Assembly: GCA_009993955.1 (NCBI GenBank)
Contig: JAACSL010000014.1
Location: 44,674 to 108,673 of the forward strand
Direction: 5' to 3'
DNA length: 64,000 bases
DNA from: Paraglaciecola sp.
GTDB taxonomy: Bacteria; Pseudomonadota; Gammaproteobacteria; Enterobacterales; Alteromonadaceae
Positions 1,745-64,000 of this stretch are shown one piece after another. The translations under genes were made by a program, and so were the position numbers. The notes under the pieces are model-generated. The model did not search any database. It was not told the DNA's origin and was given only the letters and a program-made list of their open reading frames with translations. Position 1 is the stretch's first letter. Every line of letters begins with the position of its first letter.

Positions 1745-3892
1745 ACCAGGGTCAAGGTGCCACCCCCGCTGAGAAGCCATTGGCCATGCCAGCGCAAAAT
1801 TTTAGCCGTAAGCCCAAAGCATATTTTGCCAATCAAACATGGCGCACTTACCTTGCACGATTATTAACCTTTGGCGGCGCCATAACTATGACCAGCTATG
1901 CCACTTATCAGATGGTGTTGATTGTGTCACAGGTGGACGTGACGGTTTTGCAATGGGTAATGGTGGTTTTGTTTGCCCTCACGTTTATTTGGATTGCGTT
2001 AGCCGCTTGTGCCGCGCTCACCGGCTTTTTGCTCAGGGCCAAACCCTTGGTGTCGCGTAGCCACACAACAAGCCACAAAAAAACGGTGTTATTAATGCCC
2101 ATTTATAATGAGGATGCCAGTCAAACGTGTGCAGCCTTGTTGAGTATGGCAAAAGCCTTGGTGGCCAAAGGCTGGGGACAACAATTTGAAATTTTTATTA
2201 TTTCTGATTCCAACAAAGCTGATTTATGGGTGAAAGAAACAGCCGCGGTGAAAGCACTGCAAAGCGAATTAGCGGGGGAGATGCAGGTATGGTATCGCCG
2301 TCGTTACCACAACACCGCTAAAAAAGCCGGCAATGTGCACGAGTTTGTCAGTCGCTGGGGTGGGCAATACGACTTTATGTTGATCTTAGATGCCGACAGC
2401 TTATTGTCGGCGGAGACCTTGATCACCCTCATGGCAGAAATGGAAACTGATCCGAATAGCGGCATTCTGCAAACCCTGCCTTGCCTTTACAGGGGCGATA
2501 CTTTGTTTGCGCGCTTGCAACAGTTTGCGGGATCAATATACGGACCCATTGTGGCTGAGGGCATTACGGCTTGGCAGGGTAATGATGGTAACTATTGTGG
2601 CTGAGGGCATTACGGCTTGGCAGGGTAATGATGGTAACTATTGGGGGCACAATGCCATCATTCGCGTGAGCGCCTTTGCCGCTACCGCCGGTTTACCCAG
2701 TTTAGGAGGTAAAAAACCCTTCAGTGGCGATATTCTGTCTCACGATTTTGTCGAAGCTGCCTTGATGCGCCGTGCAGGATGGTCGGTGCGCATGTTACCT
2801 AATTTAAAAGGCTCATGGGAAGAAAGCCCACCCAGTTTATCGGATGTCGCCACACGCGATAGACGTTGGGCACAAGGCAATATTCAGCATTTGGCCGTGT
2901 TACGTGCACGAGGTTTACGTTGGCCAAATCGTTTTCACATGCTCACTGGTATTATGGGCTACCTCGCCTCACCCATCTGGTTTGCCCTGATTTTGATTGG
3001 TATTGTGATGGCGGTGCAAATTCACTACGTCAACGTGGAATATTTTTCTGACGAAATGAGTTTATTTCCCCACTGGCCGGTCTTTGACTCACAGCGCATG
3101 GTGCAGCTGTTTGTCATCACCATGGCTATCCTATTAGTCCCCAAAATATTAGGTTTGGTAAGGGCTATATTCAGCCCTGAGTTGCGCCGACCATTAGGCG
3201 TTATTCGCCTAATACTAGGGGCCTGTGTGGAACTATTTTTTTCGGTGTTGTATGCCCCGATCTTCATGTTGATCCACAGTAAACACATCATTGATATATT
3301 TCGTGGCCGTGACTCTGGCTGGTCTGCACAACAACGTCAATACAGCGGGTTACCTTGGGCACAGTTATTTCGTCTGCACAGCTGGCATACCATGATCGGT
3401 ATCAGCATAACCCTGGTTTTATCCTACTACTCGCCACCACTGTTACTGTGGCTTGCTCCTACCTTAGTGGGATTGGTATTCGCCATTCCACTGTCTGCCT
3501 TAAGTGGTAGTCAGGGTCTAGCGCGGGTACTGCGTTTTGTGGGTTTACTGAACATTCCTGAAGAAGTAACAGAACACGCGGTGATGCAAAAGCGAGAATC
3601 CTATGTTGCGCACTTTGCTAAGGTTGTCGCCGACATCAATATCCATCGTTTACTGAGTGAACAACAACTGCGTGAACAACACTTTTCTATGGTATTAACG
3701 GCACCAAAAGCCGCACGCGGCCACCCTCCCATCAATCAAATGGGCGCGGCCTATAAAATAGCGGATGCACATGATGCCGACGAGGCCTTGGAATGGATGC
3801 ATAATCAAGAAAAACTGGCACTGCTCAGCCACCCAGAAATCTTTGCCGATCTCCTGCGCCTGCACCAGAAAAACCTGCGGCAAAGCCAATAA
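1720..3892 (+). pseudogene. opgH: Glucans biosynthesis glucosyltransferase OpgH/MdoH, split into two frames (1720-2604 and 2507-3892) by a 46-bp tandem duplication
   Basis: Both ORFs are OpgH-like (MPIYNED, LDADSLLS, LSHDFVEAALMRRAGW); removing one 46-bp copy restores a single ~708-aa frame. Confidence 0.85.
2548..2639 (+). repeat. Perfect 46-bp tandem direct duplication (2548-2593 and 2594-2639) inside opgH
   Basis: attgtggctgagggcattacggcttggcagggtaatgatggtaact occurs twice in succession, then ATTG. Confidence 0.97.
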
Positions 3893-62996: not shown

Positions 62997-63176
62997 ATTG
63001 CCTGCAAAATCAGGCTTTCATTTGTCGCTGCGCGACGGGCTAATGCGCTGTGCTCATTAAGATTATGCGCTGCGCGCACTTATCGCTGCGCGACCGCAAT
63101 CCATTGCTTATTTCAAGCAGCATCCCTGCTGCTTGAGTTACTTCTTTCCAACAGCCGAAAGAACTAACGAAGAAAG

Positions 63177-63320
63177 GCCGCTCTCCAACCAAGTTCTATT
63201 CCTTGCGCTACTTGGCAAATAAAGGTCGCGATGACTTGTTCCCGACAAGACATCACTCAAATTACATCCATGTAATTTTCCCTTTATTTGCCTGCGGTGC
63301 TCGGGGAACTTGGAGTCGAG
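63177..63320. repeat. Module copy 1: GCCGCTCTCC ... CGGGGAACTTGGAGTCGAG with nested inverted arms
   Basis: CCAAGTTC (63189-63196)/GAACTTGG (63306-63313); GGCAAATAAAGG (63214-63225)/CCTTTATTTGCC (63281-63292). Confidence 0.85.
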
Positions 63321-63624
63321 GGAAAACGATAAGTTTCTTCGAATTTAAGAGTTGTTTGTCGATTATTTAAGATGGATGCCCTATTAGGTACTTCGTGCAC
63401 TGGCTTCCATGCCATTTTTCAAACGACATCCTTGTCGCCCGACCATACTTTTTTGTAAAGTGCATCCCTGCACTTTACCTTACGGCCAGCTATAGCTGTC
63501 CCATATTTATCCCGTAAATATGGTCAACAGCTAAGAAGAGTAGGCACAAATTTTTATGGAAAAAATTTGAACATCCGAAGGATGGCCCGAAGGGTGAAAT
63601 ACATGGATGTATTTCATAACAAAA

Positions 63625-63778
63625 GCCGCTCTCCGGCAAACTTCCTAATCCAATTTCACCCGCACCTTGTTGATCAAACCGGCGCAGGTAACATCCATGT
63701 AAAGCAGGCGCCTTGTCCAAACGTCCATGTTTGGACATTTGACAAGACACAGCTGAAATCGGGGAAGTTGGAGTCGAG
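63625..63778. repeat. Module copy 2: GCCGCTCTCC ... CGGGGAAGTTGGAGTCGAG with nested inverted arms
   Basis: AACTTCC (63639-63645)/GGAAGTT (63763-63769); ATTTCA (63653-63658)/TGAAAT (63754-63759). Confidence 0.85.
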
Positions 63779-63936
63779 AAAAAATTAACAGCGTCGCTGC
63801 GCGATATGGCACTTCATGAATGAAACATCACTATCCGAACAAAATAAATATGTGTGTCCTATTAAGCGTGTTTTTATTGCCTTGTATACTGTACTTACGT
63901 AGCAGATATTTTTTATATATATAACCTGAGATCGGT

Positions 63937-64000
63937 TTAAGCAGCCACCATCGCATTTCTCTCAACGTCGCTAATATTAAGGGATGGCTTATTTTTCTTG
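63937..64000 (-). CDS. Possible C-terminal end of a gene running off the window (...KKNKPSLNISDVERNAMVAA*)
   Basis: Open minus-strand frame from the edge to a TAA; no family recognised. Confidence 0.3.
   Translation of the reverse strand, partial: KKNKPSLNISDVERNAMVAA

Follow-up and report, generated by a model that had tools for sequence, protein, structure and literature searches.

The TwoAYGGAY motif has been described as a probable non-cis-regulatory RNA (Weinberg 2010, PMC2864571), CsrA binding by this motif was proposed in 2014 (PMC4333381), and its Rfam clan includes RsmY, a small RNA that binds RsmA/CsrA. The consensus obtained for CsrA by selection is RUACARGGAUGU, with the GGA lying in a hairpin loop (PMC4347634). 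As regards integron cassettes, Alteromonas carries them in two regions without an integrase (PMC4119200), and cassette arrays without an integrase are mobilisable in trans (PMC12444791). In the window (the whole stretch of 64,000 nt of Paraglaciecola DNA analysed here), two hairpin modules lie in series close to the contig end. Copy 2, read on the minus strand, is a TwoAYGGAY RNA (Rfam RF01731; 46.5 bits against a gathering cut-off of 43, model positions 1-168 of 168). Copy 1 (63177-63322) gave no RF01731 match even at an E value of 1 and goes unrecognised by Rfam; it is a member of an undescribed family, here named type B, TwoAYGGAY being referred to as type A. The larger context in which we place the modules, that of paired borders of attI platforms, was unforeseen in the initial annotation, and it suggests that a poorly understood RNA family marks the edges of swappable gene slots across the marine genus Paraglaciecola.

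Two module families and the strand that folds

Both copies start with GCCGCTCTCC (at 63177 and 63625) and, read directly, end with ...GGGGAACTTGGAGTCGAG at 63320 in copy 1 and ...GGGGAAGTTGGAGTCGAG at 63778 in copy 2; these shared ends, already noted in the initial annotation, were recovered independently by a repeat search (D2 88%, D3 78%). The outer arms proposed within each copy are indeed complementary when read directly, both nested second arms were located (Table 1), and G63193-C63309 and C63641-G63767 are genuine partners, with the G-C to C-G swap present as claimed. As evidence this swap is weak when the two copies are compared with each other alone, because they belong to different families, but the same position covaries within each family. 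The interiors differ, as had been stated, although not through simple divergence: treatment of the two copies as one family was rejected in favour of two interchangeable types with common ends. Type A carries two AYGGAY-loop hairpins on a long closing stem; type B has the ends CGACTC...GGAGNGCGGC as in type A and a different interior, with one ANGGAU hairpin and one hairpin containing the invariant stretch GUCGGGAAC. Some borders are longer, at 273-290 nt, and consist of type A ends with an added inner segment or an entire type B module (L045 about 2700-3000; L044 3400-3704; L081 6708-6990).

Table 1. Positions of the two modules, their arms and the neighbouring hairpins in the window
Feature	Position	Strand	Basis or remark
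GGA-loop hairpin GCAATGGATTGC, within repeated arm	63096..63107	-	
GGA-loop hairpin TCAAGCAGCAGGGATGCTGCTTGA	63113..63136	-	
GCTGTTG-loop hairpin, 3' side of copy 1, within repeated arm	63137..63168	-	repeat search, I8
Copy 1, type B border module	63177..63322	-	model R1, 145.8 bits at 63177-63319; covariation
Copy 1 outer arm, CCAAGTTC complementary to GAACTTGG	63189-63196/63306-63313		direct reading
Copy 1 inner arm, 12 bp	63214-63225/63281-63292		repeat search, I6
Copy 1 CGGGA-loop hairpin	63235-63249	-	on closing stem of type B module
Copy 1 ANGGAU hairpin	63259-63278	-	on closing stem of type B module
TTTCTTCGAATTTAA, adjoining copy 1 5' end	63334..63348	.	by eye
GGA-loop hairpin CGACAAGGATGTCG, 3' side of copy 2	63424..63437	-	
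GGA-loop hairpin GTAAAGTGCAGGGATGCACTTTAC, 3' side of copy 2	63455..63478	-	
GGA-loop hairpin CCATATTTACGGGATAAATATGG, 3' side of copy 2	63501..63523	-	
Opposite-polarity hairpin (GGA loop on plus), between copy 2 and its other 3' hairpins	63595..63616	+	
Copy 2, type A border module, TwoAYGGAY RNA	63625..63780	-	RF01731 match 63621-63788; genus model R2, 149.1 bits
Copy 2 outer arm, AACTTCC complementary to GGAAGTT	63639-63645/63763-63769		direct reading
Copy 2 inner arm, 6 bp, ATTTCA/TGAAAT	63653-63658/63754-63759		
Terminator-like hairpin and T-run immediately 5' of copy 2	63788..63800	-	

Several features around the modules recur elsewhere. The GCTGTTG-loop hairpin is found 3' of most copies, and within this hairpin some arms hold an optional extra module, ACCAATTTTTACGGGATAAAAA...GGGATG... 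(window 63455-63540, minus strand; L210, L212, L219). The hairpin TGAAATACATCCATGTATTTCA (sense strand), which in the window occupies 63595-63616, is likewise recurrent, its loop polarity being opposite to that of the surrounding GGA hairpins. At the position equivalent to the terminator-like hairpin of copy 2 the consensus of other units has a hairpin followed by TGCTTTTGATTT, and TTTCTTCGAATTTAA beside copy 1 is similar, by eye, to the cargo-side motif TTCTTCGAATTAACGC at the far end of units of the same group. Spurious proteins predicted by the ORF finder span border arrays (e.g. ...GWRSAFLGDFFWLLKRS..., window 63490-63750, minus strand; L081 1730-2149, minus strand, is similar), and such reading frames may enter annotations as hypothetical proteins.

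The minus strand is the sense strand of both modules. Folded as RNA, it gives z scores of -5.84 (copy 1) and -5.61 (copy 2), in both cases better than all 200 dinucleotide shuffles, and the plus strand gives -5.78 and -3.84, respectively. The initial annotation had made its reading depend on further copies with complementary arms, and many such copies were found. Double compensatory changes occur at 34 of 47 pairs in type B (13 copies), with 95.2% of cells paired, compared with 76.2% after shuffling, and none of 500 shuffles as high, and shifting the partner by one to three columns abolishes the signal; in type A (35 copies) they occur at 27 of 46 pairs, with 95.1% of cells paired against 81.4% when shuffled. 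Since these sequences are related, neither the fold counts nor the loop counts given below are to be read as probabilities. The proposal that the element is kept as a structure rather than as a sequence thus holds in part: the fold of both types is kept while the sequence changes, but the ends CGACTC and GGAGNGCGGC and the loops CANGGAYG and GUCGGGAAC are conserved as sequence.

The other part of that proposal, that the structure is a cruciform or an RNA, can be narrowed. G-U cells outnumber A-C cells by 70 to 11 in type A and by 19 to 8 in type B, and hairpins with a GGA loop number 136 sense against 2 antisense within 112 elements and 184 against 22 over the 350 nt lying 3' of them, with about six found in shuffled sequence. 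A symmetric cruciform is disfavoured because reading on both strands would give equal numbers of G-U and A-C, and the excess of G-U together with the one-strand GGA loops argues that one strand (in the window the minus strand) is selected to fold, either as RNA or as single-stranded DNA. Several consensus-like GGA loop motifs of CsrA type are present on this one strand, 193 of 320 GGA loops matching CANGGA(C/T) or CAGGA, and a CsrA gene is present in a congener. No sigma-70-like promoter was found near the modules in the window region, and a sigma-70 promoter of their own was rejected on this basis; together with the terminator-like 5' hairpin this speaks against an ordinary small RNA.

Paired borders, attI leaders and cargo

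Merging of the listed matches gave 258 elements. Type B is present in all 22 Paraglaciecola genomes and also, weakly, in four of 136 other genomes, while type A was detected with the genus model in 18 of the 22 and with the Rfam model in 36 of 119 relatives. A search of plasmid and phage DNA returned no match to the elements, for which reason carriage by plasmid or phage was rejected; similarly, the Y1 transposase (PF01797) has no match in the window's own genome, and a REP/RAYT or IS200/IS605-like origin was rejected accordingly. Many copies in this genome (G000) lie at contig ends (C16, C23, C57, C69, C77 and C81), so the draft assembly breaks at the arrays and full units are under-counted.

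Among the 258 listed elements, neighbours of opposite orientation lying no more than 6 kb apart face outward in 33 cases and inward in 2 (p 4e-8), the effective number of pairs being smaller because some sites are orthologous between species. Either type may stand at either end of a unit, with A paired with B in 16 of the 34 listed pairs, and a transposon with identical terminal repeats was rejected, the ends of a unit being often of different type. In the congener G011, copies at different sites mostly become similar no more than about 30 nt from the element 5' end, and the repeated segment runs 160-335 nt outward, taking in the GCTGTTG hairpin and additional GGA hairpins; it follows that unique cargo adjoins the 5' end. 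The genes on either side converge in 16 of 30 units, as against 50 of 237 background pairs. A unit occupies the rpsF site in three congeners and is absent from that site in the window's genome and two others; a target duplication or exact insertion point of the whole unit was sought here, where the junction is unreadable because the intergenic DNA is too diverged. A Xer-like integrase with an IS91-type transposase after it, directly on the cargo side of a G004 border (L126 6463-8414), was set aside as local to that site. Up to the contig end, which lies 220 nt past copy 2, no oppositely oriented partner accompanies the window copies.

At one end of a unit, border and cargo are separated by a conserved leader. 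In the P. mesophila group this leader (X1) is similar to the stretch that immediately precedes the chromosomal intI, with 77-79% identity over 181-190 nt in the best cases; a platform copy in G014 is 99% identical over 228 nt to the attI of the same genome, and one in G004 is 95% identical to attI over about 175 nt. At all junctions listed, the match breaks off at the core GTT(A), as in TTTATTAATATTGTTAG, beyond which varied cargo follows. When the attI of intI loci served as query, all 15 loci that have a recognised border showed the order border-attI-cargo, these loci having been chosen for holding borders; two more matches lie at a contig end (L112) and in a locus without a recognised border (L123), and attI copies without borders also exist (L275-L278). 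Overall, attI was recognised in about 12 of 33 pairs, half of those from layout alone. An adjacent intact intI, as in a complete integron, is lacking from the platforms, in which intI is absent or a stub (about 51 codons and 104-123 codons; L129, L274), the stubs of L129 and L274 being positioned between border and attI. The nearest cargo gene reads away from the leader in the 13 leader-bearing units inspected, of which L082 also has an oppositely directed IS4 transposase.

The leaders of the G011 group (X2), to which the window's genome is assigned by leader type, have the same layout, and it is from this layout that they are taken to be attI, because they show no BLAST similarity to the intI-linked attI of G011. 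Contig C69 of the window's genome provides one such unit, with a border, an X2-type leader, a gene for 137 aa and a far end reading ...GCGTTAATTCGAAGAA. The flanks of the window copies themselves (63323-63540 and 63781-64000, the contig ending at 64000) gave no attI match. Near a different, more distant integrase gene there is a copy resembling the attI of G011 (77% over 177 nt; L255 2911-3083). In G003 a weak type B match begins 37 nt past the end of intI (L260 7658-7887, plus strand), and a complete integron may therefore also be bordered. A rough home-made detector placed three attC sites in L106 and one strong site in L121, and its census was weak overall, with at least one match in 10 of 34 units against 6.4 chance matches expected; convincing sites are confined to a few units.

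Among the genes enclosed are Septu PtuAB, IetAS with PD-Lambda-2 and a number of candidate defence families of a single gene each, together with toxin-antitoxin genes, transporters and small genes of unknown kind; transposases occur in isolated units only, and none is common to the units. About 11 of 31 gene-bearing units hold at least one PADLOC match at 1e-8. Defence matches were obtained for 16 of 61 cargo genes and for one of 20 neighbouring host genes (a RecQ cross-match), and since p is 0.057 we call defence genes frequent rather than proven to be enriched. One site lies between an MFS gene and another conserved gene; its cargo is unrelated among six species, although the proteins encoded on either side share 86-98% identity. 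The cargo of P. chathamensis at this hotspot encodes a protein of 906 aa (L112 282-3002, plus strand) with no PADLOC, Pfam or NCBIfam match, a candidate defence gene of unknown type.

Proposed function of the borders

The outward pairs, the order border-attI-cargo, the endpoint at GTT and the absent or truncated intI lead us to regard the modules as borders of integrase-less attI platforms, and we consider it probable that they are such borders and, jointly, that IntI loads the platforms in trans and that the borders fold as CsrA-binding RNA. A typical unit would comprise an outward-facing border, an attI copy with or without an intI stub, one or a few genes directed away from attI, and a second outward-facing border. 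The chromosomal integrase IntI, acting in trans, would insert cassettes at the dispersed attI copies, so that each unit would be a separate cassette slot. Less certainly, the minus-strand fold would, as RNA, bind CsrA/RsmA through its paired GGA hairpins, and such an RNA would titrate CsrA or put the outgoing transcripts under Csr control. In the window two borders would stand in series, copy 2 facing cargo past the contig end. A more far-reaching proposal, of an integron organized as dispersed attI slots with paired CsrA-binding RNA borders and one chromosomal integrase loading defence and other genes at many sites, we put forward tentatively, as something that could well prove wrong; as part of it, the borders may connect the slots with the Csr network or make the slots mobile in their own right.

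The main rival assigns the borders a role as DNA, in which hairpins of one single strand would be recognised by an unknown recombinase or transposase and the whole unit, attI and cargo included, would move as a block, in a manner that may be likened to attC sites or IS200/IS605 ends. Scattered multi-copy elements with a sharp 5' boundary, outward-facing pairs around cargo, presence and absence between congeners at the rpsF site, the lack of a detected promoter and the truncation of intI at differing points beside borders would all be accommodated by such a role. Ends so often of mixed type would be unusual for a transposon, however, the window's genome is without a Y1 transposase and the cargo without a common one, and loops of CsrA consensus and common G-U pairs suit RNA better; we regard a DNA role as possible, with the chances nonetheless against it. 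The same loops lend themselves to a different explanation, namely that the modules are dispersed CsrA/RsmA-binding small RNA or UTR elements whose position at cassette platforms is secondary, for instance because intergenic gene ends collect both. An Rfam family with two GGA hairpins, the RsmY clan, the published CsrA proposal and the strong sense bias of GGA loops within the elements and on their 3' side are in its favour, as is the occurrence of type A outside the genus, where close pairs have no gene between them (L091, L097). Independent placement would nevertheless not be expected to yield 33 outward pairs against 2 inward or a fixed order of border, attI and cargo, and the window region offers no promoter, so that we judge this explanation unlikely.

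Both the fold and the junctions bear on whether the borders are passive, that is, mosaic intergenic repeats that would supply RecA homology for exchanges of cargo, or transcription terminators placed between cargo and host genes. Compensatory changes and conserved loops imply selection on the folded form, and junctions that fall at the GTT of the attI core speak for site-specific recombination; although arrays that are mosaics of many repeated hairpins, cargo that varies while its neighbours stay the same, terminator-like hairpins and the convergent flanking genes would be consistent with passive repeats, we find the idea distinctly improbable.

Comparison with RNA families, integrons and mobile elements

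As regards significance, the orphan Rfam family TwoAYGGAY gains a genomic role, and beside it stands another family that has the same ends and covaries strongly; it is suggested that integron attI sites can be dispersed along a chromosome as discrete slots, each with borders of its own. If true, dispersed bordered attI slots would explain the swapping of defence genes at many loci without a local integrase, and TwoAYGGAY RNAs elsewhere may mark similar slots. The published motif and copy 2 have in common the two AYGGAY-loop hairpins on a long closing stem, with a score that passes the gathering cut-off; unlike the published motif, TwoAYGGAY here is the border of a cassette platform, occurs in outward pairs and lies beside a second family with the same ends. 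With the sponge RNAs CsrB/CsrC and RsmX/Y/Z the modules share many GGA hairpin loops on one strand, many of them fitting CANGGAYG. They differ from these RNAs in being many dispersed copies paired around cargo, in their strongly covarying multi-branched fold, in the absence of a promoter from the window and in that their CsrA binding is a prediction.

Mobile insertion cassettes consist of cargo between insertion-sequence ends, without a transposase. The units resemble them in carrying cargo between inverted ends without a transposase of their own, yet the ends of the units are long, structured and of mixed type, enclose attI and have no match to known transposon ends. CALIN are defined by attC arrays, and in the open-licence literature searched no report was found of such borders or of a matching architecture of structured borders around attI slots. 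As in CALIN and the Alteromonas regions without intI, the cassettes of the units lie distant from a working intI; like integrons and CALIN, the units have attI copies with a crossover at GTT and, in a few cases, attC-like sites. The units differ from CALIN in that every slot comes with an attI copy of its own, typically holds one or two genes and is enclosed by two structured borders.
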